Below, piece after piece: positions 608 through 19,904 of a stretch of 23,319 bases of DNA (positions are counted from its first letter, which is position 1; each line of letters starts with the position of its first letter). Below the pieces are notes generated by a model. That model was not told where the DNA came from, did not search any database, and saw only the letters and a list, made by a program, of their open reading frames with translations. The position numbers were made by a program, and so were the translations under genes. Source of the DNA: a virus. The stretch lies in the IMG/VR virus record IMGVR_UViG_3300033571_013924, positions 1 through 23,319 of that record. The stretch is one strand, 5' to 3'.

Positions 608-637
608 GCCTCGCCCCTAACCGGGCGGGGCTTTTTT
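608..637 (+). terminator. Rho-independent terminator
   Basis: A 9-bp stem, GCCTCGCCC (608-616) and GGGCGGGGC (623-631), pairs with one G-U, has a 6-base loop (617-622), and is followed directly by six T (632-637). It lies 18 bases after the stop of the upstream gene and just before the next promoter, so it insulates the upstream operon from the replication operon. Confidence 0.93.
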
Positions 638-650
638 ATTGAAAAAAGAT

Positions 651-679
651 TTGACACGCGCGAACAGATCGCGCATAAT
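651..679 (+). promoter_or_regulatory. Sigma70-type promoter of the replication operon
   Basis: The -35 box TTGACA (651-656) is a perfect match to consensus. The -10 box CATAAT (674-679) matches 5 of 6, and the spacing is exactly 17 bp. It sits between the terminator at 608-637 and the first gene at 711, with a leader of roughly 25 bases. The host RNA polymerase should recognise it. No phage RNA polymerase gene is in the window. It is the only convincing promoter I found here, and it probably drives all genes to 9121. Confidence 0.9.
658..674. promoter_or_regulatory. Operator-like palindrome in the promoter spacer
   Basis: GCGCGA (658-663) and TCGCGC (669-674) form a perfect inverted repeat around a 5-base centre (ACAGA). 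It fills the spacer between the -35 and -10 boxes and touches the first base of the -10 box. A dimeric repressor bound here would block RNA polymerase, so I infer an operator. No regulator gene is visible in the window, and the palindrome could be chance in GC-rich DNA. Confidence 0.5.
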
Positions 680-698
680 GCAGACACCTTAACAAGAT

Positions 699-703
699 AG
701 GAG
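699..703 (+). promoter_or_regulatory. Ribosome binding site of the first operon gene
   Basis: AGGAG lies 7 bases before the ATG at 711, in an A-rich leader. It supports 711 as the start and contrasts with the many weak, translation-coupled starts later in the operon. Confidence 0.8.
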
Positions 704-710
704 ACATACC

Positions 711-1139
711 ATGACCTTCATTAGATGTACCCCGCAACCCGTAACCGACTTCGCCGCCGAGATTGCCGCCAAAATGATCTTGGCCTACGCTGAAACCATC
801 CAGGAAGTGGGTGGTGAGATGCCCGACCTGCCGCAAATCGCCGAGTTCGACCCGTCCTGGTGGCAACGCCAGATTGACGTCCACATCAAGTGGGCCGGCG
901 ACCGCATCCCGGAAGTGGCTGAAGCCAAAATCCGCAACGTTGCACGCTGCATGGCGCTGCGCCAATACTGCGGCCAGACCTGCCAGATCAACTTCGACAA
1001 GAAGGTGCCCTACTGTGACCGCAACTACTTGGCGGACACCCGCGCATGGCCTAAGCCCTGCCCGAAGACGCTTGACGACCTACTGAAATCGTTGAGCTGT
1101 CCGACCCACTACCCGACAGAAGAGGACAACAACGTATGA
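711..1139 (+). CDS. Cys-rich unknown protein, first gene of the replication operon
   Basis: 142 residues, starting with ATG after a good AGGAG and directly downstream of the strong promoter. It therefore should be among the first and most abundant products of this operon. The N-terminal half is predicted helical (FAAEIAAKMILAYAETIQEVG). A Trp-rich motif follows (DPSWWQRQIDVHIKWAGD, near 47-64). The C-terminal half has six cysteines (80, 87, 91, 102, 117, 130), including C87-x3-C91, which could bind metal or form disulfides. There is no signal peptide or membrane segment. I do not recognise the family. The promoter-proximal position suits a regulatory or host-takeover protein, but this is inference. 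Confidence 0.7.
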   Translation: MTFIRCTPQPVTDFAAEIAAKMILAYAETIQEVGGEMPDLPQIAEFDPSWWQRQIDVHIKWAGDRIPEVAEAKIRNVARCMALRQYCGQTCQINFDKKVPYCDRNYLADTRAWPKPCPKTLDDLLKSLSCPTHYPTEEDNNV

Positions 1140-1528
1140 AGCACACACCCAATCGCTACACCGAGATCTTCGCCGAGCTGCGCAGGTATGATGATCACCA
1201 CAGGAAGATCGCGCATCAAAACAAGTGGGTCCCTGTAGCCATTATCCTTCTTGGCCTGTTGCAAGTGGTGGATGGCGGCCTGACCTACTGGCTGATCACT
1301 GCGGGCGTGGCCACTGAAGCCAACCCGCTGGCCGCCCACCTGTTCAACAACTTCGGGCTGGCACAGGGAGTGGTGCTGGCCAAGGCCCCGCCAATCTTCC
1401 TCTGCTACATGCTGTGGACGTTGCGCGACTACATCCCCGGCCGGCCTTGGCGGGTTTGGATCATATACCTGCTGACCACCTTCTACGTGGGCGTGATCGG
1501 ATGGGAGATATTTGGGGTGATGCTATGA
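1136..1528 (+). CDS. Three-pass membrane protein, DUF5658-like
   Basis: 130 residues. The ATG overlaps the previous stop (ATGA), and AGAGGA lies 9 bases upstream. A charged 30-residue N-terminus is followed by three hydrophobic segments at about 32-56, 74-96 and 106-129. The first contains VVDGGLTYWL (D46 with a following L-T), and the loop after it has the signature E61-x-N-P. A membrane Asp with a following E-x-N-P loop is typical of DUF5658-type proteins, a bacterial and phage membrane family of unknown function. It acts in the inner membrane. Possible roles include superinfection exclusion or anchoring of replication, but neither is shown. It is the first of four small membrane proteins in this operon. 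Confidence 0.75.
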   Translation: MKHTPNRYTEIFAELRRYDDHHRKIAHQNKWVPVAIILLGLLQVVDGGLTYWLITAGVATEANPLAAHLFNNFGLAQGVVLAKAPPIFLCYMLWTLRDYIPGRPWRVWIIYLLTTFYVGVIGWEIFGVML

Positions 1529-1749
1529 ACTTTCCAAACTTAGAAGAGCTGTACACGCTACACACACGCGAGGGGTACGCCGCGCGGGAAGCGCTGCGCA
1601 CCTGGGCAGGGATCACAGCAAACAAGCACCTTGCCACGGAGATCGTCCACAAGGTCAACCGGGCAAGCGTGGACGCGTTCCGCAACCGGCATGCGCACCT
1701 GCACGAAAAGGACACCGGCGACCACGCAGCCGTGCGAGGTGAAGCATGA
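1525..1749 (+). CDS. Unknown 74-residue protein
   Basis: The ATG at 1525 overlaps the previous stop (ATGA) and follows GGGGTGA at 1514-1520. A longer frame begins at 1414 but would overlap the membrane protein gene by more than 100 bases, so the short form is preferred. The protein is hydrophilic and His/Arg-rich (FRNRHAHLHEKDTGDH), helical throughout, with no known motif. It overlaps the polymerase start by 4 bases, which suggests coupled translation. Function unknown. Confidence 0.65.
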   Translation: MNFPNLEELYTLHTREGYAAREALRTWAGITANKHLATEIVHKVNRASVDAFRNRHAHLHEKDTGDHAAVRGEA

Positions 1750-3593
1750 AGATCGTCGATTGTGAAACGTTAAGCCCGCAGCCGATCAAGTACGGCCTGG
1801 AGCGGTACTTCTCGGAAGGGGTCAAGGTGCTATGCTGGGCGTTCGGCAGTCACCCAGATAACGTATACGTGCAGCGCAACCCCCAGCCCCGAGAATGGGT
1901 TGGATACCGCGCCCACAACGCCGCGTTCGAACGCAAGGTGCTGCACAACTCCGACATCAAATGCACCCAGGCGCAGGCACTCGCAAACGGGTGTCCAGGC
2001 GCGCTGGATGACCTTACACGGTTCCTGAACGTGCCGCACCGCAAGAACCCCAAGGGCAAGGCCCTCATTCAACGCTGCTGCGTGCCAGGTGGCGCGCCAA
2101 CGGAGCAGGACTACCAGGACTTGGCCGAATACTGCGCGGACGACGTGCGCGCCACCTTGGCGGCCGTAGATCGTCTCCGTGTCCTCACTCCTAAGGAAGA
2201 GGATCAGTACGAGCTGAACGAGCGTGTCAACGCCCGAGGCGTGCTGGTGGATCAAAACCTTTGCCGTGCGGCGATCGCACTGAACGACAAGGAGCAGGAC
2301 GTGTTGAACCGCCAAGTGCGGGAGCGAGTAGGGTTGTCCCCGCGGTCCATAAAGATGGTAGATCTGATTAGGCAGCGTATCCCGGAGCGCTTGCACAGCC
2401 TGATGGTGGACCCGGATACGGGCCGCCCGACGCTGGGCGCGGCCGCACGTGCTGATCTGCTGGATGACGAAAACCTTGATCCGGACACCGCCGATCTTCT
2501 CACGATGATCGACGATGCCCGCGCCACGGCCGCATCCAAATACGCCAAGCTCCTCGAGCATCTGAACCACCCATACAGCGACGGTCGGCTGCGCGGAGCA
2601 CTGATCTTCAACGGTGCACGTGTGACCGGACGCTTCAGCTCGCAAGGCGTGCAGATTCACAACCTGCCGAGATCCCCAAAAGGTTTCGATCCGATACAGG
2701 CACGAGCCGAGATCATGTCGGGCGCCTTGACCGGGAACCTGCCAGACACGTTGAAATTCTCGCTGCGAACAGTGTTTATCGCTGCCCCAGATCACTCCTT
2801 TGTGTGGGGTGACCTGAACGCGATCGAGGCGCGGATGCTGCAGTGGCTGGCCTCGCCCGAACGGGATACGGACACTCTGGCAGACTTCCGTGCCGGACAG
2901 GACCCGTACATCCGTGCTGCGCGCGCGATCGGGCAGGACCGCTTCATCGGCAAGGTCCAGACTCTAGCCTGCGGCTATCAGGGTGGCGTGAACGCACTGG
3001 CCAGGATGGCGCGGGCATACGGACTCAAGTTACCGCCCGATCTACAGCTTTCCGCGGTTAACGCTTGGCGGAAATCGAACCCTGCGGTGGTGAAGTTCTG
3101 GGAACAGCTGGAGAACGCCGCCATCGAGGCGGTGATACACCGGGGCCGTATGTGCACGGTGGGCGTGCTGAACTTCTTCGCGTCAAGCGACCGGTTGATG
3201 GTGCTGCTGCCTTCCGGGCGCCTACTCACCTACTGGCAACCGGAGCTAGTGGACGGGCAATACGGTTTGGATCTAACCGTGTTGAATCCGTCGCTGAAAC
3301 CAAAGAAGGGGGGCTCGGAATGGCCGCGCAAACAGATGTACGGCGGCCTGTGGGCAGAGAACTTGACCCAGGCTGTGTGTGCGGACGTGTTGCGTGACAA
3401 GCTGGCCTTGGTTGAGGATATGGGCCTTCCTATCGTGCTGCACGTGCATGACGAAATAGTGTGCGAAGTGCCGGATGAAGCGGTATCCAGCGCACAGAAA
3501 ATGCTCGACGCGGCGCTCAAGAACCAGTTAGAATGGGCCCCAAACTTCCCGCTAGGTGCCGAGATAATGAGCGGCAAGGAGTACAGAAAATAA
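1746..3593 (+). CDS. Family A DNA polymerase with 3'-5' exonuclease
   Basis: 615 residues; the phage replicative polymerase, which extends primers and proofreads. Exonuclease motifs are D5-x-E7 (VDCETLS), HNAAFE at 57-62, where Glu stands in the usual Asp place, and Y129-x3-D133. The polymerase domain has motif A GDLNAIEAR with catalytic D356, motif B R399-x3-K403-x3-L407-x3-Y411, and motif C HVHDE with D569. There is no 5'-3' exonuclease domain, as usual for phage enzymes, and the exonuclease region is compact. The position matching E. coli Phe762 is Leu407; this residue is known to affect nucleotide selectivity and speed, and the Leu form is common in environmental phages. Motif A reads DLNAIEAR rather than DYSQIELR, placing it in the phage branch. 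GAGGTG lies just before the ATG, which overlaps the previous gene (ATGA). It works with the SNF2-type helicase and reductase downstream. Confidence 0.96.
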   Translation: MKIVDCETLSPQPIKYGLERYFSEGVKVLCWAFGSHPDNVYVQRNPQPREWVGYRAHNAAFERKVLHNSDIKCTQAQALANGCPGALDDLTRFLNVPHRKNPKGKALIQRCCVPGGAPTEQDYQDLAEYCADDVRATLAAVDRLRVLTPKEEDQYELNERVNARGVLVDQNLCRAAIALNDKEQDVLNRQVRERVGLSPRSIKMVDLIRQRIPERLHSLMVDPDTGRPTLGAAARADLLDDENLDPDTADLLTMIDDARATAASKYAKLLEHLNHPYSDGRLRGALIFNGARVTGRFSSQGVQIHNLPRSPKGFDPIQARAEIMSGALTGNLPDTLKFSLRTVFIAAPDHSFVWGDLNAIEARMLQWLASPERDTDTLADFRAGQDPYIRAARAIGQDRFIGKVQTLACGYQGGVNALARMARAYGLKLPPDLQLSAVNAWRKSNPAVVKFWEQLENAAIEAVIHRGRMCTVGVLNFFASSDRLMVLLPSGRLLTYWQPELVDGQYGLDLTVLNPSLKPKKGGSEWPRKQMYGGLWAENLTQAVCADVLRDKLALVEDMGLPIVLHVHDEIVCEVPDEAVSSAQKMLDAALKNQLEWAPNFPLGAEIMSGKEYRK

Positions 3594-3850
3594 TGGCGAA
3601 CGACAGAATGTACCTGAGACACAAAGACACCGGGCTATCCGTGTACCTGGCTAAAACACTGGCGTATGGCTGGTATGGTGCGCTGCCGACACTGCAAGAG
3701 TCGCTAACACTGCTGTTCGATGCAACCGAATGGTCAGAGTTTGAGCACCCGTATGAACTGGTGTTCGAATCCGATCCAAAGGTGACCAACATAATGGTTT
3801 CGGACGAGTTCCCTGGACTACTGTCCATAGCAAAGGAGGATCAACCATGA
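3593..3850 (+). CDS. Unknown acidic 85-residue protein
   Basis: The ATG at 3593 overlaps the polymerase TAA by one base (TAATG) and follows AAGGAG at 3576-3581. A longer frame from 3533 would lie inside the polymerase gene and is rejected. The protein starts with a basic patch (MANDRMYLRHKDTG), then aromatic residues (YLAKTLAYGWYG), and ends acidic. No membrane segment or motif is visible. Its place directly behind the polymerase suggests a replication accessory role, but I see no evidence for a particular one. Confidence 0.65.
   Translation: MANDRMYLRHKDTGLSVYLAKTLAYGWYGALPTLQESLTLLFDATEWSEFEHPYELVFESDPKVTNIMVSDEFPGLLSIAKEDQP
3832..3840 (+). promoter_or_regulatory. Strong ribosome binding site
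   Basis: AAAGGAGGA is nearly the full anti-Shine-Dalgarno complement, 6 bases before the ATG at 3847. It strongly supports the very short membrane peptide gene that follows. Confidence 0.8.
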
Positions 3851-4005
3851 CCTACGCCGAAACCTGTCTGACAATCCTGACCATGTGTGCGCTTTACCAT
3901 ATCGAGGGCCGTTTGAAAAAACTCAAGATCCTGATTGAAACCCTGATCCTATCCATCGTCGTCGGCTGGATCTCCACCGGAGCGATGAGCGAGCTGCTAA
4001 AATGA
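3847..4005 (+). CDS. 52-residue membrane peptide
   Basis: A short gene with one of the best ribosome binding sites in the operon (AAAGGAGGA). It overlaps the previous stop (ATGA) and the next start by 4 bases. The product begins MTYAETCLTILTMCALYH, has a basic patch (GRLKKLKI) in the middle, and then a hydrophobic stretch at about 28-44 (ILIETLILSIVVGW). The first 18 residues are also hydrophobic, so it may span the membrane twice as a hairpin with the basic loop in the cytoplasm. Two short hydrophobic segments around a basic turn resemble small holin-like peptides, but holins normally sit in a lysis cassette, and no lysis enzyme is next to it. Function unknown. Confidence 0.7.
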   Translation: MTYAETCLTILTMCALYHIEGRLKKLKILIETLILSIVVGWISTGAMSELLK

Positions 4006-5294
4006 GAGCATTATTACCGTTTCAGGAACGAATCCTGAAGGAGGCAATCGAAAAGAAGTGCGGTCTCGTCACGCTCAAACCCGGTGCGGGCAAGTCAGCC
4101 ATCATGGTCAAGCTGGCCGAGCACGTGTGGTCGGAGACCGCCGGACGCACAATAATCGTGGCTCCGTGCCGGGTTGCACATGCGGTCTGGAAGCGTGAGT
4201 TCGACAATTGGTCCTCGCCACTCAAGGTGGCCAACGCGCTGGGTAACATCTACGCCCGCAAGGTGGCAGCCTTGAGCGAGCATCAGGTTCTGGTAACGCA
4301 CTATGACCTATTCGAAAAGGTGCTGCCGCACATGAAGATAGGGCTGTACTCGGCGATCATCCTGGACGAAACCAGCTACATTACCCGCACCCAGACGGCG
4401 CGGTGGCAGGGAATGAAGGACATCTTCAAGCTGTTCGACTATCGGTTCTGCCTGAACGGCAACATCCGCAACCGCGGCGGCATTGAGGAGCTGTGGAGCC
4501 AATGCTTCGTGGCGGATCTCGGAAAGCGACTGGGGCCGCGGAAAGTACCGTTCCTGACGAAGTGGGGGTTCACCGATCGGTTCGGAAACTGGGAGCCGAA
4601 TCCGTGGAAGGACATGACCGAGGTATGGGACAAGGTGCGGGAGTTGGAGCTGACCGCGCCCGAGGAAGAGTACCGGCAACTGCCTGACTTGACCGAGACG
4701 CCGCGATACGTGCAGTACCCTAATGCCCTTAAGCAGCGGTACACAAAACTCAAGGAGGAGGCTGCTGAGCTGCTTCTCGACGATGCACAGCACAACAGAT
4801 ACCTGGGGTTCACCGAGAAGCTGCGACAACTGGCGTCGGGCTTCCTGTACGGACATGAGGGATCGGTGGAGATGTTCGACGACTTTAAGCTGAAGGAGTG
4901 CACCGATCTTGTGCGCGAGGTGGCGCCCTGCATCGTGGTGTATCAACACAAGTTCATGGTGTCCGAACTGCGCAAGCGGCTGGCAGCCGAGAACCTGAAG
5001 GTGGCTGAGTTCCGCGACGCGTCGCTGGAGGATCTAAAGCGTATGGACGTGATCCTGCTCCACCCCGCCAGCGCCGGCCACGGGGTTGACGGATTACAGG
5101 ACAAGTTCAGCAAAATGGTGTGGGTGCAACCAGACTGGAGCGGCGACCGCGCCGCCCAGACGATAGCACGGGTATGGCGACGCGGGCAAACCGCGCCGGT
5201 TCATGTGTATTGGCTGCTCTCGGAGGGCACGGTGGAGGAGCGGGAGTTCCTCAAATCCGAGTCAATCCGCGAGAACTTCGACATTCCGTCATGA
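4002..5294 (+). CDS. SNF2-type superfamily 2 helicase/ATPase
   Basis: 430 residues; an ATP-driven DNA translocase or helicase, probably for replication or recombination. Walker A is KPGAGKS with K31. Motif Ia is IIVAPCRV at 51-58. Walker B is LDETS at 121-125 rather than the usual DEAH/DEGH form. Motif III is LNGN at 151-154, where T-G-T is usual. Motif VI is Q386-TIARVWRRGQ, the Q-x3-R-x2-R-x-GQ arginine-finger signature of SNF2 proteins. At 430 residues it is a minimal two-domain SNF2 core without the chromatin or protein domains of larger relatives. Phage genomes often carry such a protein beside a family A polymerase, and this may be the replicative or fork-remodelling helicase. Its start overlaps the membrane peptide gene by 4 bases. 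Confidence 0.92.
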   Translation: MRALLPFQERILKEAIEKKCGLVTLKPGAGKSAIMVKLAEHVWSETAGRTIIVAPCRVAHAVWKREFDNWSSPLKVANALGNIYARKVAALSEHQVLVTHYDLFEKVLPHMKIGLYSAIILDETSYITRTQTARWQGMKDIFKLFDYRFCLNGNIRNRGGIEELWSQCFVADLGKRLGPRKVPFLTKWGFTDRFGNWEPNPWKDMTEVWDKVRELELTAPEEEYRQLPDLTETPRYVQYPNALKQRYTKLKEEAAELLLDDAQHNRYLGFTEKLRQLASGFLYGHEGSVEMFDDFKLKECTDLVREVAPCIVVYQHKFMVSELRKRLAAENLKVAEFRDASLEDLKRMDVILLHPASAGHGVDGLQDKFSKMVWVQPDWSGDRAAQTIARVWRRGQTAPVHVYWLLSEGTVEEREFLKSESIRENFDIPS

Positions 5295-5587
5295 AAATCA
5301 CAATCTACGAGAAACCGCCGGGACGGTACTTCACCGGTCCGAAACTGACCACGGAAGTCTTCAACGTGGGCGAACTAATCAAGGTGCGGACAGAGGTGGA
5401 GATACATCAGACGTGGCGCAAAAGCATACCGCTGGACACACCGCACGGGCTCAAACACTACCGGCCCGTGATCCGGTACTACAAGGGCACCGTCATCTAC
5501 CCGCCGCCACTGTCCCCAGGGTACAGCGACACGCTGGACGCTGACGATATCGAATTTGCCTTGTCATGGGGGGAGGGGAGAGCATGA
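5291..5587 (+). CDS. Unknown 98-residue protein
   Basis: The ATG at 5291 overlaps the helicase stop (ATGA). There is no clear Shine-Dalgarno, so it probably depends on ribosomes finishing the helicase gene. A longer frame from 5120 lies inside the helicase gene and is rejected. The protein is beta-rich and basic (KITIYEKPPGRYFTGPKL), with a Pro-rich turn (VIYPPPLSPGY) and an acidic end (LDADDIEFALSWGEG). No known motif is visible. Function unknown. Confidence 0.65.
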   Translation: MKITIYEKPPGRYFTGPKLTTEVFNVGELIKVRTEVEIHQTWRKSIPLDTPHGLKHYRPVIRYYKGTVIYPPPLSPGYSDTLDADDIEFALSWGEGRA

Positions 5588-5877
5588 ACGCCGTAACAGA
5601 GTTCATTTCGGAGCACGCTTTCTGGGCGCACTTGGCGTGGACCGTGGGATGCTTCGTGTTGCTGGTAGCACTACTACCGATGCTTTGGATTCGCCCGCGG
5701 TTTAACCGCCGCTCGGGGCCGCTTGGCCGCCGCGCGCACGACCAGCCGTGGTACGAGCCAGAAATATATGTTGAATTCTTCAACAAGCGGGGGTATTCTT
5801 TAACACGAAAGGACGTAGACGAACTTTTCCAATCCATCATCGAGAGAGGTGAATCATATGACCGAAACCTTCATTAA
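5584..5877 (+). CDS. Small single-pass membrane protein, 97 residues
   Basis: The ATG at 5584 overlaps the previous stop (ATGA) and follows a purine-rich GGGGGGAGGGGAG. One hydrophobic segment lies at about 16-36 (LAWTVGCFVLLVALLPMLWI). It is followed at once by a very basic stretch (RPRFNRRSGPLGRRAH), so by the positive-inside rule the C-terminal 55 residues should face the cytoplasm. That domain ends in an acidic helix (TRKDVDELFQSIIERGE). The family is not recognised. It overlaps the next membrane protein gene by 20 bases. Confidence 0.65.
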   Translation: MNAVTEFISEHAFWAHLAWTVGCFVLLVALLPMLWIRPRFNRRSGPLGRRAHDQPWYEPEIYVEFFNKRGYSLTRKDVDELFQSIIERGESYDRNLH

Positions 5878-6064
5878 ACTGATCAAGAAAATCATCCACG
5901 ACACGCCGACCCTTATCGGTGTCGTATGGGGTCTCCTGGTGTTCATGCTGCTCGCAGGTGCCAGCAGCCACGTGTCCCAGATCAAGTCGCACAACGCCGC
6001 GCGGTACCATCAGCAACTGCTCGACTATGCTTGGGCCGCCAAGCTGTCCGGGACGGGCCGCTAA
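5858..6064 (+). CDS. Small single-pass membrane protein, 68 residues
   Basis: The ATG at 5858 follows GAGAGG at 5843-5848; a GTG three codons upstream is possible but has worse spacing. The protein has a basic amphipathic start (ETFIKLIKKIIH), one hydrophobic segment at about 19-38 (TLIGVVWGLLVFMLLAGASS), and a His/Ala-rich tail. This resembles small phage membrane proteins and some type III holins in size, but no endolysin is adjacent. It overlaps the preceding membrane protein gene by 20 bases, so the pair is probably co-produced. Confidence 0.65.
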   Translation: MTETFIKLIKKIIHDTPTLIGVVWGLLVFMLLAGASSHVSQIKSHNAARYHQQLLDYAWAAKLSGTGR

Positions 6065-6546
6065 TGAGCGCAGCTGGCTCCGGCAACTCCAACATCTTCC
6101 TGGCCAAAGCCTACAGCAAGAGCCGCAAGCGCTGCCGTGAGGTGGGATGCTCCACCGAGCGGGAGCTGGCCAAGGCCATGCAGACGCTGACCGGCGTCAC
6201 GTTCGCCCGCAACCTAAAACAGTATCAGGTTGCGGGAGGGCAAGATATAATAGCGGTCGAGGAGTGTGCTTGGCGCAAGGTGTACATCGAGTGCAAGTAC
6301 CGCCGCACGCCCACCGTGCACGAGCTGCGGCGGATAGCGACGAAGACTGTTGCGTCCGCGCAGGCGGCAGGGTACGACTTAGTTCTGCTGGCGTTGCGCA
6401 AGTACGGGTCGACCGAGTTCCGCGGATGGATATACACAGGCGAGCTGCCAGAGATCCCGCACGCGGCCAGTGTGGACACTGTGACCGTACCGCTAGCAAT
6501 GGCGGTCCAAATGATCGAGCAACATTTCACGTGGGAGGGTAAATAA
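6064..6546 (+). CDS. PD-(D/E)xK nuclease candidate (resolvase-like)
   Basis: 160 residues. The ATG at 6064 overlaps the previous TAA by one base; the longer frame from 5926 is rejected because it would run through the membrane protein gene. The centre has the pattern of a PD-(D/E)xK nuclease: an early helix with E34, then GGQD with D61, then a strand with E76-x-K78 (YIECKYR), then a helix with R/K residues (TVHELRRIATKTVASAQAAG) and a strand (YDLVLLALR). This resembles archaeal-type Holliday-junction resolvases and phage nucleases, which cut branched DNA using metal. Neighbouring polymerase, helicase and reductase genes fit a recombination or DNA-processing role. No close family can be named from sequence alone. 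Confidence 0.65.
   Translation: MSAAGSGNSNIFLAKAYSKSRKRCREVGCSTERELAKAMQTLTGVTFARNLKQYQVAGGQDIIAVEECAWRKVYIECKYRRTPTVHELRRIATKTVASAQAAGYDLVLLALRKYGSTEFRGWIYTGELPEIPHAASVDTVTVPLAMAVQMIEQHFTWEGK
6533..6539 (+). promoter_or_regulatory. Ribosome binding site of the reductase
   Basis: GGGAGGG lies 6 bases before the ATG at 6546 and decides this start, which overlaps the preceding TAA by one base. Confidence 0.7.
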
Positions 6547-8789
6547 TGCAAGAAGTGAGTAGAGACGTACTGATCGAGAAATACTGCAAGAACGGGGAGA
6601 CGACCACGCTGGAAGTCTTTCACCGCGTGGCCAGGGCGCTGGCCTCAGTAGAGAACCACCCGGACGAGTGGGGGGCGAAATTCTACGCGGCGATGCTGAC
6701 CGGCTTCATCCCCGCCGGCCGTATCATGTCGGCCGCTGGCACGGACCTGGAAGCGACGCTGATTAACTGCTTCGTGCAGCCGGTCGGCGACGCGGTGCGG
6801 GGCGTGGACAAGAACGGCAAGCCGGGTATCTATCCGGCGCTCGAGATGGCGGCGGAGACGATGCGCCGCGGGGGTGGTGTTGGCTATGACTTCAGTTCGA
6901 TCCGCCCGAAGGGCGCTTGGGTGGCTTCTACTAAGTCACACGCTTCTGGTCCTATCTCTTATATGCGGGTGTTCGACAAGTCATGTGAGACTGTCGAATC
7001 CGCAGGTTCTCGGCGTGGGGCACAAATGGGGGTGTTACGAATCGATCACCCTGACATTCTGAACTTCATCAAGGCCAAGCAGGTCAAGGGTGAACTGACC
7101 AACTTCAACATCTCGGTCGGCATCACGGACGCGTTCATGCGCGCGGTGGAGGACGGTACCACGTGGAAGTGCGAGCATTCTGGCGTGAAAGCCGAGTTCG
7201 TCGCGCGCCAACTATGGGACGAGATCATGCGCTCCACGTACGACCACGCGGAGCCTGGTGTTGTCTTTCTGGACAACATCCGCGACGGCAACCCGCTGCG
7301 CCAATTCGAGAAGATCGAAGCCACAAACCCGTGCGGAGAGCAGCCGCTGCCCGACTACGGTTGCTGCTGCCTCGGCAGCATCGACCTGACCCGGTTCGTG
7401 CTGCATCCGTTCACGGATGACGCGAAGTTCTCTTTCACCAAGTTTTACTCGGTGGTCCGCCCCGCCGTGCGAATGCTGGACAACGTGTTGGACCTGACCT
7501 ACTGGCCGCTGCCCGAGCAAAAGGTTGAGGCGATGGCCAAACGCCGAATCGGGCTTGGCTTTACCGGCCTAGGCGACGCGTTCATCATGCTGGGTTATAA
7601 GTACGGCTCCTCCGAGGCTGTAGCGTTTGCGCGTGCAGTGGCTTCAGGCATGTTGACAGAAGCTTACGCTGTGTCCGAAGAGCTGGGTAAAGAGAAAGGT
7701 ATCCCGGAAGTCTGCAAGAAGGCAGGAATCGCGCGCCGCAACAGCCACTTGACCTCAATCGCGCCCACCGGCACGATCTCACTGGCGTTTGCGGACAACG
7801 CGTCCAACGGGATCGAGCCTCCGTTCTCCTGGAAGTACGACCGCAAAAAGCGGATGCCGGACGGCTCGGAAAAGCACTATGTGGTGGAGGACCACGCCTA
7901 CCGGTTGTACAAAGAGAAGTTCGGTGGAGAACCGCCGTTGGGGAGACTAGAGTGGGTGTCCGCTCTGGACCTCTCGGTGGAGGATCACCTAGCCATCCAG
8001 GCAGCGGTGCAACCCTTCGTTGATTCCGCGATCTCGAAGACGGTGAACGTGCCCGAGGACTACCCGTTCGAGGACTTCAAGGAACTGTATTGGCGGGCCT
8101 GGAAGCTGGGGTTGAAGGGTGTCGCCACGTACCGCCCGTCACCGACACGCGGGGCGGTGTTGACAGTGTCGAAAGATACGCCAGTGAAACCGGTCACCGC
8201 CGGCACCGGTACCGGATCAAGTATGGAGGTAAAGGTGAATGTGGATAAACCTGCTCTTGCGTTGCGCTTCAAACATCGCCCCCGTACATCCGGCGGAAAT
8301 CCGAGTCGGACCTATTGGGTCGATCATCCCGGCGGCAATTTCTCAATTACCATCGGGTGCCTCGATGATGACCCACGCCCATTCGAAGTCTGGGTTAACG
8401 GGGTGGGCGCCTCCCCGGCACTCGGCGCGCTGGCTAAGGCTTTGTCCCTGGACATGAGGGTTGAAGACCCGTCATGGCTCTCGCTGAAGCTGGCACAACT
8501 GAAGGACTACCCGGAGCACAACGGAGCGTTCTGGGCGCCGGTGCCGGGCAAGGAGAAGAAACGGCTGTACCCGTCGTCTATAGCCTATCTGGCGGACGTG
8601 GTGGAGTACGAAGTCAAGCGGCTGGGACCAAGTTTGGTGGAGCAGATTGCGACCAACGTAGCGGAGAACAACCAGCTGTATCACAAATTAGCTGGTATCG
8701 GTCAGTGCCCGGAGTGCGGCTCTGGTTTGGTCAAGCGTGACGGGTGCAAGGAGTGCCCGGAGTGCGGTTACAAAGGAGACTGTGGATGA
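6546..8789 (+). CDS. nrdJ: Adenosylcobalamin-dependent (class II) ribonucleotide reductase
   Basis: 747 residues; reduces ribonucleotides to deoxyribonucleotides using a B12-derived radical, supplying dNTPs for phage replication with or without oxygen. The active site NPCGE has N261, thiyl C263 and E265. By family analogy the redox pair is C75 (INCFVQP) and C274 (in CCCLGSID). The phosphate-binding loop is PTGTIS at 407-412. There is no N-terminal ATP-cone, so overall activity is probably not under dATP feedback. A Thr/Gly linker near 545-560 leads to a TSCPD-like domain (about 560-690). The C-terminus has C721-x2-C724, C734-x2-C737-x2-C740 and C746, a zinc-ribbon and redox tail that passes electrons to the active site. 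No separate small subunit or activase gene is present, as expected for class II. Confidence 0.95.
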   Translation: MQEVSRDVLIEKYCKNGETTTLEVFHRVARALASVENHPDEWGAKFYAAMLTGFIPAGRIMSAAGTDLEATLINCFVQPVGDAVRGVDKNGKPGIYPALEMAAETMRRGGGVGYDFSSIRPKGAWVASTKSHASGPISYMRVFDKSCETVESAGSRRGAQMGVLRIDHPDILNFIKAKQVKGELTNFNISVGITDAFMRAVEDGTTWKCEHSGVKAEFVARQLWDEIMRSTYDHAEPGVVFLDNIRDGNPLRQFEKIEATNPCGEQPLPDYGCCCLGSIDLTRFVLHPFTDDAKFSFTKFYSVVRPAVRMLDNVLDLTYWPLPEQKVEAMAKRRIGLGFTGLGDAFIMLGYKYGSSEAVAFARAVASGMLTEAYAVSEELGKEKGIPEVCKKAGIARRNSHLTSIAPTGTISLAFADNASNGIEPPFSWKYDRKKRMPDGSEKHYVVEDHAYRLYKEKFGGEPPLGRLEWVSALDLSVEDHLAIQAAVQPFVDSAISKTVNVPEDYPFEDFKELYWRAWKLGLKGVATYRPSPTRGAVLTVSKDTPVKPVTAGTGTGSSMEVKVNVDKPALALRFKHRPRTSGGNPSRTYWVDHPGGNFSITIGCLDDDPRPFEVWVNGVGASPALGALAKALSLDMRVEDPSWLSLKLAQLKDYPEHNGAFWAPVPGKEKKRLYPSSIAYLADVVEYEVKRLGPSLVEQIATNVAENNQLYHKLAGIGQCPECGSGLVKRDGCKECPECGYKGDCG

Positions 8790-9121
8790 GCAAAGCAAGC
8801 GAAAGACAGGTCGGCGGTAGCCACTACACCGACATGAAGATCCAGCCGTTCACCTTCTCGATGGCGAACGGCCTGGACCCGATGCGGCACACGATCATCA
8901 AGTACGTGTGCCGCAAGAAAGGCGGGAAGGAAGATCTGCTGAAGGCCCGGCACACGCTGGACCTTCTGCTGGAGTGGGAGTACCCGGAGGAAGAGAAGAA
9001 GCACTCAGGAGTCCCGTCCTGGGCGTTGTCACGGAACCCGTTGTACGCAAAGCTATCGCGTCAAAAGGACATCGAGGACGCCTCCCCGGAGTATCCGGCC
9101 GAGGAGATCTGGGGCTGCTAG
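8786..9121 (+). CDS. DUF3310 protein (T7 gp1.7-like)
   Basis: 111 residues. The ATG at 8786 overlaps the reductase stop (ATGA) and follows AAAGGAG at 8772-8778; a longer frame from 8744 is rejected. Residues 9-63 carry the DUF3310 pattern: GGSHYTDMKIQPF, a short helix with NGLDP, then IIKYVCRKKGGKEDLLKARHTL. This domain is found in T7 gene 1.7, a nucleotide kinase, and in many phage replication modules. A role in nucleotide metabolism fits its position behind the reductase, but nucleotide kinase activity cannot be assumed for a short protein. The last 45 residues are unrelated to the domain. Its TAG is shared head-on with the stop of the last minus-strand gene. Confidence 0.88.
   Translation: MSKASERQVGGSHYTDMKIQPFTFSMANGLDPMRHTIIKYVCRKKGGKEDLLKARHTLDLLLEWEYPEEEKKHSGVPSWALSRNPLYAKLSRQKDIEDASPEYPAEEIWGC
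9118..9121. other. Shared CTAG: overlapping convergent stop codons
   Basis: The palindrome CTAG is read as TAG on the plus strand (9119-9121) and as TAG on the minus strand (9120-9118). The replication and structural operons therefore overlap by 4 bases tail to tail, with no space between them for a normal intergenic terminator. Confidence 0.9.
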
Positions 9122-9426: not shown

Positions 9427-9944
9427 TACACCATCCCTCCGAAATAGCCCATGCGGACAGGCGCGCCCACGTGGTATCCTGGACCGCGCGCGACAGGCGC
9501 GTACTTGTTGATCGGGTCTTCAGGCATTGGCGGCGCCAACGGTGCCATCGGCAGCGGGTCCGACAATGTGGGCACCGGCATGATAGTAGCGTCTGGGGTC
9601 GCAGGGGCTGCCGGAGCGGGGCCTGCTGGAGCAGGTACGGCAGGAGCTGCGCCCCACTTCCCGTTTGCGCCCTGCGCCATGTGGTTGCGCGCCGCCCACG
9701 CAGCCTGCGTCGCACCAGGCACTACTGCCGGCCCAGCGCCGCCGAGGGGGGAGTATCCATAGTTCTGGCCGCTGCGGTCTGCGCCGGGAACGCCTGCCGC
9801 CCCACCGTACGACGGAGTGGCGCCCAGCATGGAGCCAAACGACCCTGTTGCGGGTGCCCCGCCGAAGCGTGGTCCCGTGTTCCGACTAAACTGAGACGGT
9901 GCCGCCCCAGAGCTACCTCGGCCGCCACCAGTGAAATCAACCAT
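9426..9944 (-). CDS. Gly/Ala/Pro-rich virion protein candidate, 172 residues
   Basis: The ATG (9944-9942) overlaps the preceding stop by one base and has GGGAG about 9 bases upstream. The sequence is low-complexity: Gly/Ser/Phe-rich in the first 75 residues (GGGRGSSGAAPSQF), then Ala/Pro-rich (AAPAVPAPAGPAPAAPATP), then a short tail (INKYAPVARGPGYHVG). No membrane segment is strong, and I recognise no enzyme motif. Such disordered, Pro/Ala-rich proteins behind fibre genes may be fibre-associated or virion-internal proteins. The opposite strand carries long open frames here, but only because the GC-rich sequence lacks stops. Confidence 0.6.
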   Translation of the reverse strand: MVDFTGGGRGSSGAAPSQFSRNTGPRFGGAPATGSFGSMLGATPSYGGAAGVPGADRSGQNYGYSPLGGAGPAVVPGATQAAWAARNHMAQGANGKWGAAPAVPAPAGPAPAAPATPDATIMPVPTLSDPLPMAPLAPPMPEDPINKYAPVARGPGYHVGAPVRMGYFGGMV

Positions 9945-14047: not shown

Positions 14048-15791
14048 GTTGCTTCAACAGCTCGTCCAGGGAAGAAGTCGGTGCGGCAGGCGCCGGGACG
14101 CGCGGTGCCGGGCCGGTAGGTGCTGCGCCCGCACGGGATCGAAGTAGCGCTTCTAACTCTTTCGCCGCAGCAATCTTATCCTTCAACGCGTTTCGTTTTG
14201 TTTCCTTGTCCATCTCAGTGGATAGACCCATACCTAGGCGCGCCATGAGCTGTTCAGGGATGGCGATCTGTCCGCCGCCGGTCAAAGCTTTAAGGTTGGG
14301 GCCAACGACTGCTTCCGATAGCCGCTTAAACTCGTTCCGGGCCTGGTTCTCCGCGCCGCCGAAATTGCGCTGACCGTAATCCTTGGCCAGCCGAGCCAGA
14401 TTGCCGTGCCCTCCGGGAATGTCCAAATCCCAGTTGATCTGCTCATTCAGCTCATTCAGCCTATTGAGATCGGCCATGTACTGGCTGTGCTTGGCCAGCA
14501 GGTCCTCAGCCTCCACCGCGGTGGCCTTTTCCTGTTTGCTGGGGGCAACTTTGGTGACGCCCGGGATTTGGGACCGATCCATACGCCCCAGCGGGGAGTC
14601 CGGCGTAGGCACTTCGGTCGGCATATCCGGAATTTCCGGAGGCTGTACGTGGTTCTTGGCCGGGTTAGGCGCGGCGCCGTCGTCGGAGTACCCGGGGGTC
14701 CCCTCCACTAAGTTGACGTATCTTCTGTTCTTCGGCCCCCAATTCTTGGGGTCGGGTCCGCCGTGATATTTGCGTCGCGCCAATTCCACGTCGCCGCCAG
14801 ATTCTTCCAGGAGCTGTAACCACAGCTTCTGGCTGCCCTGTACGTTTTGCACCGGGTCGTTCGGGTCAATGCCCAAACCTTTCGCAGTCTCAGGGATGAT
14901 TTGGCCTATACCAATCGCACCCTGCGGGCTTACCGCGCTCTGCCGCCCGCCAGACTCGTGATTGGTCAGCTTCTCCCACTCGCGGTAAGCCGCCTGCGGG
15001 TCCACCCGCCCGTTGGGCAGGAGAATGTTGCGCTCCGGCATCTCCCGCGGTACACCGTTCGGGAGCGTTCCATACCCGCCAGCCGGTCTTTGTTGCCGGC
15101 TCCGCTGGATGTTCTGCCCGTGCGGCGTGTTCCTGTACATTTCGTTAGGGTCTGTCACCACGCCCTGGTCTGAGTCGTATTTCGGGTTCTCCGGGGTCGG
15201 TGCAATGGGCTGCGACTGGTCGTACCCTTCAACTCCGCCTATCTGCGGGCGGGTGTACACGCTGTCGCCCAGGCGGGTATCGTGCAACTCTACCGGTGCG
15301 TCGAAACCAGTCTCCTGTAGCGGCCCGTACCGCCGCGCCTGGGCGTACTTCAGCTTGCCGTCCTTCAGGATCTTGATCGGGACCCCGATGTTCTGGTCCT
15401 GCAGGTCCTGCTTCTCCTGTTGCGTAAGCGCCTTCGACTGCAGCATCTTGCCGCCAATGCCGCGCAGTTCCGGGTCCTCAGCGTTGATCAGGTCGCGTGG
15501 GTCTATCTGGTCCTTGGACGTGATTTTCTGGCGTTCCGCCTTCATGCGGTCACGCTGCCTGAGCTGTGCGTACTGGGACAGTGCGCCGGCGATCGCCGAG
15601 CCTACGTCCTGGGTCGCGTTGCCCATGACGCCCGGGTTGGCTTGTACCCAGCCGCCGTACTCGGCCGCCATCGGCTCCTGCTGCTGGTTACCCAGCCGGT
15701 TCGCGAGCTGCGCGAAAGCGCTGGCGGCCGGGTCGATCCCGTTGTCCGGGTTGAGGAGCTGTGCTAGAGATGCGAGCGAAAAGTTAGCCAT
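14037..15791 (-). CDS. Virion protein with lytic transglycosylase domain
   Basis: 584 residues from the ATG at 15791-15789; a GTG 12 codons upstream is open but lies in the previous gene. The ATG overlaps that gene's TAA by one base. A soluble lytic transglycosylase-like domain lies near 255-350. LTNHESGG holds the predicted catalytic Glu (E279), followed by SPQGAIGIGQIIPETAKGLGIDP and RRKYHGG, which are typical of SLT domains. It cuts peptidoglycan so the DNA can cross the cell wall at infection. The N-terminal 250 residues are Gln/Asp-rich, and the C-terminal 200 contain helical, coiled-coil-like stretches (EAEDLLAKHSQYMADLNRLNEL). This layout matches ejection proteins of podoviruses. It is not a free lysis enzyme, because there is no signal or holin next to it. 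Confidence 0.85.
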   Translation of the reverse strand: MANFSLASLAQLLNPDNGIDPAASAFAQLANRLGNQQQEPMAAEYGGWVQANPGVMGNATQDVGSAIAGALSQYAQLRQRDRMKAERQKITSKDQIDPRDLINAEDPELRGIGGKMLQSKALTQQEKQDLQDQNIGVPIKILKDGKLKYAQARRYGPLQETGFDAPVELHDTRLGDSVYTRPQIGGVEGYDQSQPIAPTPENPKYDSDQGVVTDPNEMYRNTPHGQNIQRSRQQRPAGGYGTLPNGVPREMPERNILLPNGRVDPQAAYREWEKLTNHESGGRQSAVSPQGAIGIGQIIPETAKGLGIDPNDPVQNVQGSQKLWLQLLEESGGDVELARRKYHGGPDPKNWGPKNRRYVNLVEGTPGYSDDGAAPNPAKNHVQPPEIPDMPTEVPTPDSPLGRMDRSQIPGVTKVAPSKQEKATAVEAEDLLAKHSQYMADLNRLNELNEQINWDLDIPGGHGNLARLAKDYGQRNFGGAENQARNEFKRLSEAVVGPNLKALTGGGQIAIPEQLMARLGMGLSTEMDKETKRNALKDKIAAAKELEALLRSRAGAAPTGPAPRVPAPAAPTSSLDELLKQHGF

Positions 15792-16147: not shown

Positions 16148-17899
16148 TTAGCCTCCGAGTAAAGCGTTTCGAAGTGCGAGCAGGCCGGAACCTTGCGCGT
16201 TCATTGCACCGACGCCAGAATTGAGCGCGTCCAGCTGTGAGTTCCCGGCGGTTAAGTTGCTGTTGGCCAGCGTGTTGGCCAGGTTGGCGTTGAACGCGTC
16301 CTGACCCTGCACCGTGTTCACGTAGTTGCCGAGCAACCCCTGCATCCCTTGCGCGTAGTTGGTGTACCCGGTCAGGTTTGCCATCTGCGATTCCAGATCC
16401 GCGCGCATGTTGGCAACGCTTGTGCTGGTCTGATTATTCGCATTGGAGATACTTGCCCCGGTCTGGTTGTTCGCATTGGCGATACTGGCACCGGTCTGAT
16501 TGTTCGCGTTGGCGACGCTGGCCCCGGTCATGTTGTTCGCCGTAGCGATGCTGGCCCCGGTCTGGTTGTTCGCGTTGGCTATGTTGGCGTTAGTCGTGTA
16601 GCCAGCATTGGCCACGTTGATGTTGCCCTCGCCAGTGAGTCGCGCGATGTCACCCTGTTGCAGCAACCCTTGCCGCTGATAGTCCGCATTCCACAACGCC
16701 AGCTCGTTCGCCTGCCGCTGATTCGCCAGACCGCTGCGCTGGCCGAATAGTTCGTTGCCGATGTCCTGATTCTGCCGCGCCTGGAACAGGTTGGAGCTGC
16801 GGGCGAGTGCCTGCGTCTGCAAATCCTGGGCCATAGCTGCATCGCCCTGCGTGACCGCGCCCAGGTAGGCGTCATTCATCGCCTGATCGTTGCGCCGCAT
16901 CTCCTTGTCCCAGATCTCGGTGCCCGGCCGCAGGCCCATGTTAACCAGCTTGGACTCGAGCGCGTTCTGGTTGTTGCTGAGCTGCGGGTTCATGCGCTGA
17001 TACAGCGCGTCGATCACCTGTTGCCGTACCTCGGGATTGGCCTGCAGGTCCGAGTAGTTAGTGGTGTAGTCCGCGGTAGGGTCAAGCTGGCCGTCCGCCA
17101 GATAGTTCTTGATCGTGGACGAATCCCGCACCGCGGTCGGATTCCAGTTGCTCCACGGATTGGCAGCCTGCCCGGCGGTGGCGTGGCCTGCAGTTGCGCC
17201 GAACCCTGACGCAGTTCCAGCAGATGCCGAACCAGCGGTGGCCGTGCCGGCAGTGGCTTGCCCGGCCCGTGTGGCGTAGTCCGCCATTCCGTTCCAGACG
17301 CCTTGCTGGTTCTGATACAGCGAGTTGTAGTTGTCGAGCCTTCCCTGGTTGTTGTAGTTCTGGTAGAAATCCTGCAGTGGCTGGTTGGCGGACCCCATAC
17401 GGTTGTAGACGTCCTGAAACTTGCCGCTGGCATCGAGGCCCGCCACTTGCTTGGCCAGGTCGTATACACTGCCATCCAGCTCAGACACGCGCGGGGCGTT
17501 GGTCAGTTGCCGGTTAACGTCGATGTCGAACAGCTTCTGCAGTTCCGGAGACAGACTGGTACTCTTGCTCCAGGTCGTGTACTTGTTCTGATCCGGAGCG
17601 ATCTCGGTGAACGGAGTGCCCGCCCGGATGTTGTTCGGGTTCTGCCCGTGCGCCCGCCACCGTGCGTTGTATTCGTCCATTGCCTTCGAGTACGCGGCCC
17701 AGTCGACCTGCTTGTTCCAGCTAGTGGAACCGTACGGGTTGGTCTCGTTGTACCGGTTTAGTGCCAGGTCCTGCTGCACAGCACGGTCATTATTGGCCGT
17801 CTGCTGTTGCGCCTGCAGGTTTGGGTTCATGTACGCCGCAGCTTGACTCTGGGCGTATCCCTGTTCTTTCGTTTGTGGTGCCGCGCCGCCTGCCGCCAT
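16148..17899 (-). CDS. Large repeat-rich virion protein, 583 residues
   Basis: The ATG (17899-17897) overlaps the previous stop (ATGA) with GGAGG at 17909-17913; a GTG ten codons upstream is open but would overlap more. The protein is very rich in Asn, Gln, Ala, Tyr and Thr. The N-terminal part has RYNETNPYGSTSW (49-61), an NPYGS-type motif often seen in podovirus internal or tail proteins. Residues 212-246 are pentad repeats (ATAG-type), and 436-490 are five 11-residue repeats (TGAS-I-ANANNQ type). Long helical Gln-rich stretches lie between. It lies beside the tail hub and the ejection proteins, so a structural role in the tail or injection is likely. No enzyme motif is visible. The exact family is not certain. 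Confidence 0.7.
   Translation of the reverse strand: MAAGGAAPQTKEQGYAQSQAAAYMNPNLQAQQQTANNDRAVQQDLALNRYNETNPYGSTSWNKQVDWAAYSKAMDEYNARWRAHGQNPNNIRAGTPFTEIAPDQNKYTTWSKSTSLSPELQKLFDIDVNRQLTNAPRVSELDGSVYDLAKQVAGLDASGKFQDVYNRMGSANQPLQDFYQNYNNQGRLDNYNSLYQNQQGVWNGMADYATRAGQATAGTATAGSASAGTASGFGATAGHATAGQAANPWSNWNPTAVRDSSTIKNYLADGQLDPTADYTTNYSDLQANPEVRQQVIDALYQRMNPQLSNNQNALESKLVNMGLRPGTEIWDKEMRRNDQAMNDAYLGAVTQGDAAMAQDLQTQALARSSNLFQARQNQDIGNELFGQRSGLANQRQANELALWNADYQRQGLLQQGDIARLTGEGNINVANAGYTTNANIANANNQTGASIATANNMTGASVANANNQTGASIANANNQTGASISNANNQTSTSVANMRADLESQMANLTGYTNYAQGMQGLLGNYVNTVQGQDAFNANLANTLANSNLTAGNSQLDALNSGVGAMNAQGSGLLALRNALLGG
16430..16594 (-). repeat. Five 33-bp tandem repeats (11-residue units)
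   Basis: Five contiguous units of exactly 33 bases start at 16430, 16463, 16496, 16529 and 16562, and a degenerate sixth lies on the low-coordinate side. Each encodes an 11-residue unit of the form T-G-A-S-(I/V)-A-N-A-N-N-Q (residues 436-490 of the protein above). The units differ at several silent and non-silent bases, so they are old or selected repeats rather than a recent slippage. An 11-residue period suits a helical coil with three turns per unit. Confidence 0.9.
17162..17266 (-). repeat. Pentad repeat region (A-T-A-G type)
   Basis: This stretch encodes residues 212-246 of the large virion protein, a run of about seven five-residue units of the form A-G-x-A-(T/S), such as AGQATAGTATAGSASAG. 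It is low-complexity, Gly/Ala/Thr-rich, and may be a flexible linker or a beta-roll-like segment. Confidence 0.75.
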
Positions 17900-18342
17900 C
17901 AGTCTTTTCCTCCGCGGAGCCACGGGCACTCGTCCCGCAGCATGTCAAAAACAATAAGGTCTGCAACCCCGTCCGTGCCCATAGCTCGACGCGTCCCCAC
18001 GCGCTTAAACCCTAACCGCTTGGCCGCAGACAAGCTGTCCTGGTTGTCGGCGGAGATCTCGACCTCTATACGCCGCATGCCCATCTCGACAAACGCGAAC
18101 TTAAACATCAGTCGGATTACGCGCCGTGTGACGGCTTTGTGGTCGTCAACCACTGCACTGTACCGGCACGAGCCGCGGGCGTAGTCGAATGCGTCGAAGA
18201 CCAGCACCGCCCCATACTCGCCTTTAGGGGACCGAAGGGCGAATACCGCTGGGTCGATGAACAGAAGGTGGGGGTCGGGCATTCGCGCGTACGCCCATTG
18301 CAGGGCGTTGCGCTGATCGAAAACGTCAAATTGATACGTCAC
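17899..18342 (-). CDS. GNAT-family acetyltransferase
   Basis: 147 residues from a GTG at 18342-18340. This start overlaps the tail-hub stop as GTGA and follows AGGCGGA; another GTG at 18384 is open but would overlap the tail hub gene by 46 bases. The C-terminal half shows the GNAT pattern: AVTRRVIRLMFKFAFVE (helix and acetyl-CoA loop region), then MRRIEVEISADNQDSLSAAKRLGF with the Asn and Gly-Phe positions typical of the family, then RVGTRRAM and DLIVFDML. GNAT enzymes move acetyl groups from acetyl-CoA to amines of proteins or small molecules. The loop that binds acetyl-CoA is not the classic Q/R-x2-G-x-G/A, so activity is less certain. Its place inside the tail genes suggests modification of a virion or host protein. 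Confidence 0.75.
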   Translation of the reverse strand: MTYQFDVFDQRNALQWAYARMPDPHLLFIDPAVFALRSPKGEYGAVLVFDAFDYARGSCRYSAVVDDHKAVTRRVIRLMFKFAFVEMGMRRIEVEISADNQDSLSAAKRLGFKRVGTRRAMGTDGVADLIVFDMLRDECPWLRGGKD

Positions 18343-19904
18343 AGGATTCCGCCTGGGGTGTATACTAATTCCCAGGATTGCCACGCGACAAACTGGGAGC
18401 TGACGGTGACCTCAGTTTTCAGTGCGGCTGCCATACCAACACCCTGAACCGTCACCCATTGATTGTTGACTGAATCGTTGTACCCGAATACGTCGTTATC
18501 CCACAGCGCAACGTCCCAGATACCGCCCGCGGAGACACCCACGTCCAGCTCGCCCAGAAGGGCGTTTTCCTGGAAATCCACATTGACGCCTAGCTTGATC
18601 GTGGACACACCGCCGTCGGTGTTCATCAAGATTCGTGCCAAGTGGAACTGCTTGGTCACAAGGCCGTGCGGCGTCTGCGTGTACGCGCACAACGCTTTAG
18701 CTGTCTTCGCTGTCCCGCCGGGGGAGGCTTGCGTCTGGAAGTCGCCGCCTGGTTGATCCAGCTTGTAGACTTTGTCACCTATTCCGCCATAAAGTTCCGA
18801 GTCGAAATAGGCTAGACAGGTTAAATTCCACCCGCTGAAAGAGCACCATGCTTTAGTCACTGTGTTCATGACGTACTGCTTGGCCTTGATGCCAGTACGC
18901 GTGGGCACATTGACTATCAGCTTGTTCGACCGCGGGGCGTACTCACATTGCCAGCCCTCAAGCCGCTTGTACAGCAGCGCGTCCGCGGCCAGCGCCGGGC
19001 GCACTTTGTCCGCCACCGTACCCCAGGCAGACTCCACGTCGGCGCCTAGCAGCGCGGACAGTGTGACGAGCCCAGAGTCCGTAATCAGGACAGCTTCGTT
19101 CAAGGCGTTGGTGAGACAGTTCCAGCCAATAGGCTTGCCGCAGCGGAACAAGCCGACAAGGTAAAACTCACCTGTAACCGTCGGGTCCGACCCGCCGTAT
19201 ACTACAATCTCGCCCTCAGACGAGATGAATCCTATGAACTCGTCCAGCGAGCTGCCGGTGTTGCTAGCGGCAAACGTCCCGATAGCTTTGATGTAGCCGC
19301 CACGCTTCAGGTACCCAGACAGATCGAACGAGGTGACAGCGCCACCGATTGCCAGCAGGCCGCCGTACCAAACCCGGGCCGAGTTGCGCTCAGTGAACCA
19401 CAGCCGATTGCGCCAAGCCGTGACGTTGGTGAACGTGTCCGTCGTGGTGCCGGTCACCGTCGGTGCCCAGTCGGTGCCGGTTTGCGCCCACGTACTCCCG
19501 TTGTACAGGAACATCGGGTCCACACCATTGACACACACCAGATAGTGGTTGGCCGCGGACCCGAAGTTCACGTAGCGGATTATGGGTTCGGAGATGCCTG
19601 AGGATACCGCCGCGCCCACTGTACCCTTGCCGGTCACGTCGTAGATGGACCCGGAGTTAGTGACCGCGAACAACTGCTTGCCGACATCCGTGCTGTTGTA
19701 TACAAGCAACGATTTGACGGTGTTGTCCAGGCCGGTGGCCCATGTCACAGACCCGTTGCGGACTTCAATCCGCCCGAACGCGGGAAACCAGTTGTCCAGC
19801 ATCAACGCGTCCTCTTTCGGGATCTGACCGAAAGCGTCGCGCGTGTTCAGGCCCCCGATCGGGGCCGGCAGGTTTACTGGTTGGCTGCTGGTCTTACGCG
19901 CCAC
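18339..19904 (-). CDS. Tail hub/stabilisation protein, beta-propeller type
   Basis: 521 residues starting with GTG (19904-19902) after CGGAGA; it overlaps the adaptor gene by 11 bases. Residues 10-50 have NLPAPIGGLNTRDAFGQIPKEDALMLDNWFP, a hallmark opening of podovirus proteins like P22 gp10 (packaged DNA stabilisation) and T7 gp12 (tail tubular protein B). The rest is beta-rich with repeated short units (LFAVTNSGSIYDV, LWFTERNSARVWYGG, YGGIGDKVYKLD), consistent with a beta-propeller-like fold. It closes or extends the tail under the adaptor. Several Trp/Asn loops (TAWRNRLWFTE) are typical. Whether it is P22-like or T7-like needs structure prediction. Confidence 0.85.
   Translation of the reverse strand: MARKTSSQPVNLPAPIGGLNTRDAFGQIPKEDALMLDNWFPAFGRIEVRNGSVTWATGLDNTVKSLLVYNSTDVGKQLFAVTNSGSIYDVTGKGTVGAAVSSGISEPIIRYVNFGSAANHYLVCVNGVDPMFLYNGSTWAQTGTDWAPTVTGTTTDTFTNVTAWRNRLWFTERNSARVWYGGLLAIGGAVTSFDLSGYLKRGGYIKAIGTFAASNTGSSLDEFIGFISSEGEIVVYGGSDPTVTGEFYLVGLFRCGKPIGWNCLTNALNEAVLITDSGLVTLSALLGADVESAWGTVADKVRPALAADALLYKRLEGWQCEYAPRSNKLIVNVPTRTGIKAKQYVMNTVTKAWCSFSGWNLTCLAYFDSELYGGIGDKVYKLDQPGGDFQTQASPGGTAKTAKALCAYTQTPHGLVTKQFHLARILMNTDGGVSTIKLGVNVDFQENALLGELDVGVSAGGIWDVALWDNDVFGYNDSVNNQWVTVQGVGMAAALKTEVTVSSQFVAWQSWELVYTPGGIL

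Follow-up and report, generated by a model that had tools for sequence, protein, structure and literature searches.

The window, by which we mean the whole stretch of 23,319 bases analysed here (G+C content, 61%), carries a closely packed run of + strand genes of about 8.4 kb behind a candidate promoter, with small proteins lacking a clear family placed between those listed in Table 1. The - strand genes, from about position 9944 to the right end, give tail, lysis and head matches, the major head protein being cut off. The run had been called a replication operon when the sequence was read alone, and its gene content supports the name, as PolA, a helicase and a ribonucleotide reductase lie together in this packed + strand series, which is presumably covered by a single transcript. 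Because a terminator-like site lies upstream at 608-631, the promoter at 651-679 is likely the main entry to the operon. Among the structural genes, the - strand frame at 17899-18384 gave a GNAT acetyltransferase match (27.5 bits, against a Pfam cut-off of 25.4). The only Rfam match, at 687-713, was below the threshold and was discarded (15.5 bits, cut-off 49).

Table 1. Position of the features and genes around the candidate promoter in the window.
Feature	Coordinates	Strand	Remarks
Intrinsic-terminator-like site	608-631	+	9-bp stem with 8 G-C pairs, loop of 6, TTTTTT; closes the upstream + strand genes
-35 box TTGACA	651-656	+	read from the sequence
Promoter spacer CGCGCGAACAGATCGCG, 17 bp	657-673	+	read from the sequence
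Candidate operator, dyad GCGCGA-ACAGA-TCGCGC, 17 bp	658-674	strand-neutral	centre at A666
-10 box CATAAT	674-679	+	first base shared with the dyad
Ribosome binding site AGGAGA	699-704	+	6 nt ahead of the ATG, read from the sequence
First gene after the promoter, 142 aa	711-1139	+	no Pfam or PHROG match
DUF5658 protein, 130 aa	1136-1528	+	Pfam
DNA polymerase, 615 aa	1746-3593	+	PHROG match; family A (PolA) by our own reading
DNA helicase, 430 aa	4002-5294	+	PHROG
Putative PDDEXK nuclease, 160 aa	6064-6546	+	below the Pfam cut-off
Ribonucleotide reductase, 747 aa	6546-8789	+	PHROG
DUF3310-like protein, 111 aa, final gene of the run	8786-9121	+	below the Pfam cut-off

The segment 651-679 matches the sigma70-type consensus at 11 of 12 positions, with the near-consensus boxes and the spacing within 16-18 bp that are expected of a sigma70 promoter carrying an operator in its spacer, and transcription would start near 685-686. 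In a search of both strands for sites with at least 11/12 consensus positions and a spacing of 16-18 bp this was the sole such site in the window, and at least one site of at least 11/12 appeared in 5 of 100 order-1 Markov resamples of the window. Both the promoter and the inverted repeat between its boxes were found exactly where the sequence-only reading had placed them. The two arms (658-663 and 669-674) are perfectly complementary around the loop at 664-668, and the -10 box begins with the last C of the right arm. As C and G at loop positions 2 and 4 also pair across the central A666, the element can be described as a 17-bp dyad with 7 of 8 symmetric pairs, the centres of its half-sites being separated by 11 bp, or roughly one helical turn. 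The 11-mer AGATCGCGCAT at 666-676, which runs across the right arm into the -10 box and includes a GATC site (667-670), recurs at 1206-1216 within the DUF5658 gene.

The symmetry exceeds what most of the window offers. At least 6 perfect base pairs were found in 253 of 23,302 random 18-nt stretches (1.1%), in 122 of 8,308 GC-matched stretches (1.5%) and in 0.9% of shuffles of the palindrome's own 18 nt, whereas the score of the 17-bp dyad with 7/8 pairs was equalled by 119 of 23,301 random 19-nt stretches (0.5%); these figures are somewhat flattering, because the feature was selected after being seen and the 17-bp score was likewise chosen afterwards. The CG-rich composition and partial self-complementarity of the arms (CGCGCG) also make it easier for palindromes to form by chance here. 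A 6-bp repeat is by itself not rare, as the window contains 12 perfect ones with a 5-nt loop, so that it is the position in the promoter that matters.

Multi-copy operator sets are known in phages, the oL/oR operators of lambda and the stoperators of actinophages being examples. The fragment, which is part of a genome, contains one copy of the present dyad: the arms GCGCGA-N5-TCGCGC occurred without mismatch nowhere else in the 23,319 bases, and the looser matches were at chance level, with 4 sites at up to 2 mismatches, the original included (chance mean, 4.26), and 24 at up to 3 mismatches (25.75 for permuted arms). No DNA-binding regulator family was matched in the + strand run (Pfam for ten proteins; PHROGs for the polymerase, the helicase and the reductase), nor among the two + strand proteins upstream of the promoter and the - strand proteins scanned. 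In the Arc/Pant arrangement the first gene encodes a known DNA-binding repressor, whereas the frame at 711-1139 matched neither Pfam nor PHROGs; single-sequence structural models of its 142-aa product (pLDDT 43.8) and of a 100-aa protein were too poor to be used. The 142-aa protein is a possible autoregulator, and other possible sources of the regulator are the part of the genome beyond this fragment, the remaining proteins without a family and the host. In the examined matches of a literature search for both half-sites the letters stood in primer tables, and a known repressor with this site is possible.

No relative keeping the promoter together with its genes was found in the phage records, in IMG/VR, among the capsid relatives or in the bacterial and archaeal genomes, and patterns of promoter plus dyad, exact or loosened, gave 0 matches in IMG/VR contigs and 0 in bacterial and archaeal genomes; such zeros are not proof of uniqueness, and records very near the window were possibly left out. 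Likewise, no close relative of the promoter region was found either by DNA or by the proteins of the region. The polymerase reached a maximum of 36-37% identity in the 80 loci listed of at least 556 and about 33% with named phages among the matches listed (40 of 1,610 records), and it was not found in bacterial and archaeal genomes. The reductase reached 45% over residues 54-544 in two contigs. Named phages have only distant relatives of the polymerase, the helicase and the reductase, with 26-39% identity among the matches listed. The head protein has relatives in many contigs that are 61-70% identical (best 80 of 121), a difference from the polymerase (up to 37% among the matches listed) that makes the genome look mosaic, with the replication module as an outlier. 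Neither the polymerase nor the 142-aa protein was found in 48 whole records of capsid relatives, an empty answer that shows nothing alone as it had no known positive, and no match to the 142-aa protein, the polymerase, the helicase or the reductase was obtained in the available stretches of 80 capsid loci.

The frequency of symmetric spacers in strong promoters was calibrated with 316 distinct spacers from promoter matches of at least 11/12, contributed by 125 of 289 loci (L002-L290). The sample is non-random: 120 of the 289 loci are among the matches listed for a pattern with AGGAG downstream, and are presumed to be phages, whereas the remaining 169 are relatives of the capsid, the polymerase or the reductase plus seven records or pieces of phages (L084-L090). 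Each distinct spacer was counted a single time, related loci may share promoters, and promoters less than 80 bases from the start of a strand or less than 200 from its end were dropped, which excluded the one in L229. Dyads with 7/8 pairs were present in 11 of the 316 spacers, against a control mean of 2.0 at 11 offsets between -70 and +80 (range 0-5; individually 0, 2, 5, 3, 2, 4, 1, 1, 0, 2 and 2). At least 6/8 pairs were found in 32 spacers (control mean, 13.6) and 8/8 pairs in 0 (0.27). Perfect arms of at least 6 bp occurred in 15 spacers, compared to 3-10 (mean 5.7) at the control offsets and a mean of 5.2, with a maximum of 11, in 100 dinucleotide shuffles. For 6-bp arms, a subset of 89 promoters showed a weak excess (3 versus 1.2, a value reached by 9.5% of the shuffles), and a subset of 90 promoters gave 3 versus 0.87. 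The sample is mostly AT-richer than the window, 80 of the pattern loci averaging 40% G+C, and loci with at least 50% G+C gave only 21 promoters, 2 of them with 6-bp arms. The spacers of strong promoters thus contain near-complete dyads about five times as often as neighbouring DNA does, so that, at face value, some four in five dyads of the quality seen in the window exceed chance, and most spacer dyads this good are probably not accidents.

More symmetry than chance would give does not by itself make a spacer an operator, however. Several of the palindromic spacers in the sample are plain A/T runs, and some are hairpins, L202 and L269 being among the 15 with perfect arms and L269 among the 11 with 7/8 pairs. 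Closest in form to the window is L251 (2637-2665; TTGACA CGCCTAC-ACG-GTAGGCG CATAAT), whose 7-bp arms pair perfectly and whose -10 box is identical; part of its palindrome (CACGCCTACACGG) recurs at 2812, inside the reading frame downstream. Two TTGACA/TATAAT promoters on the - strand of L219 (offsets 7872 and 9081) have common spacer arms (AAATACC ... GAGGTA) around a differing 4-base middle, and their sequences make them a good candidate operator pair, duplication being a possible alternative.

The hairpin spacers belong to contigs with jumbo-phage-like genes. L202 (- strand, 0-based offset 3273), L229 (- strand, offset 38) and L269 (+ strand, offset 3040) share TTGACA-N17-TATAAT ahead of a DUF2201/VWA-like gene; these genes are 73-86% identical to that of L269, and their best named matches are mostly jumbo phages among the matches listed. 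In all three the spacer lies within a 10-bp RNA hairpin of -16.5 to -17.4 kcal/mol, with the stems and UNCG loops GGGTC-TTCG-GACCC, CCTCC-TACG-GGAGG and GGACC-TGCG-GGTCC. As the stem covaries, it is structure and not sequence that seems to be kept. The more distant relatives L235 and L250 keep TTGACA and TATAAT, at a spacing of 16 bp and without a hairpin of this kind. The gene upstream in L269 encodes an AAA ATPase with a MoxR match below the cut-off.

Operators within spacers are already known from other phages. Pant of Salmonella phage P22 is, like the promoter in the window, a TTGACA promoter with a 17-bp spacer, and the annotated Arc operator (Oarc, 14798-14818) covers the spacer of Pant (14793-14821); however, Oarc differs in sequence, is 21 bp long and has only 6/10 symmetric pairs, and Arc is the first gene of its operon, whereas no Arc-like gene was recognised in the window. 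In phage lambda, oL1 (taken from the annotation, the boxes of pL being read from the sequence) likewise lies in a strong early promoter, as a 17-bp near-dyad with 6/8 pairs across the spacer and the -10 box, but it extends further into the -10 box and is one of three operators, compared to the single site of the fragment. With 7/8 pairs, the dyad of the window is more symmetric than oL1 (6/8), oR1 (5/8) and Oarc (6/10). The available part of PMC7730913 describes for Axe-Txe and YefM-YoeB operator repeats in the promoter spacer, one of them partly over the -10 hexamer, as in the window, although these are autoregulated toxin-antitoxin operons and not a replication operon. The same part lists, as repressors with a binding site in the promoter spacer, Arc, MerR and Fis, and states that all described spacer-binding repressors act on open complex formation. 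According to the available part of PMC7804116, earlier work obtained strong repression from spacer operators, and in the promoter library of that study lac promoters with a spacer operator were also expressed more strongly when uninduced, their fold changes being on a par with those of the other design.

We consider that a dimeric repressor probably uses 658-674 as its operator within a strong replication promoter, a reading favoured by its placement, by the 11-bp spacing of the half-sites and by the excess of dyads in virus promoter spacers. Of the earlier proposal of such an operator, the location and geometry hold, with annotated phage precedents and the 11 of 316 spacers against 2.0 on their side, whereas no regulator was recognised among the proteins scanned. 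In the mechanism that we infer, which extends to promoter function, protein binding, repression and the identity of the protein, a sigma70-type RNA polymerase of the host would read the promoter and drive the replication genes from about 686 to 9121. A dimeric protein, either a phage repressor, a phage autoregulator or a host repressor, would contact the two half-sites, which lie on the same side of the helix at a distance of one turn, and the bound protein would hinder RNA polymerase binding or promoter opening, so that the operon could be shut off.

The GC-rich, CG-repeat spacer of an ordinary constitutive promoter might instead be symmetric by accident. Between 0.5 and 1.5% of random stretches are equally symmetric, the feature was chosen after the fact and the dyad lacks a second copy in the 23-kb fragment, but strong promoter spacers have such dyads about five times as often as the DNA nearby (11 versus 2.0 of 316), and we regard an accident as rather unlikely, if well within reach. 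The calibration sample also bears on a selection for structure and not for sequence, as a hairpin (in read-through RNA or as a DNA cruciform) or as a stiff GC-rich spacer dependent on supercoiling. The jumbo-phage-like spacer hairpins, in which pairing is kept while the stem sequence varies, illustrate this, and 651-679 alone folds to -10.1 kcal/mol as RNA (z -3.1; -2.0 in a 41-nt context) and to -8.1 kcal/mol as DNA (z -2.9). Nevertheless, the hairpin in the window has neither a UNCG-type tetraloop nor a T run behind it, a terminator is already present upstream at 608-631, and the hairpin would be absent from the operon's own RNA as it lies upstream of the predicted start, all of which makes this origin improbable. 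Equally hard to credit, in our judgement, is the broader view that strong phage promoters repeatedly make use of palindromic spacers and that evolution retains their geometry (dyad or hairpin) and not one sequence; the promoter of the window would then respond to the structure of its DNA or to a host protein of wide occurrence and not to a dedicated phage repressor.

Activators of the MerR type also bind dyads within the spacer, twisting the DNA between the boxes, and the promoters on which they act have over-long spacers of 19-20 bp. The spacer in the window is 17 bp long and thus already optimal, which argues against such an activator, and no regulator gene of this type was found among the proteins scanned. 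MerR does appear as a spacer-binding repressor in the available part of PMC7730913, but we hold an activator of this type to be very unlikely here.

If 658-674 is an operator, as we favour, it would give access to the timing of DNA synthesis in an uncultured phage whose replication module is little known, and the regulator could be sought with the dyad as bait. The 11 of 316 spacers against 2.0 in the controls suggest, in addition, that scans for spacer symmetry are a cheap way of listing phage promoters possibly under the control of a repressor. The promoter of this replication operon would then be a further example of a well-known kind of off switch.
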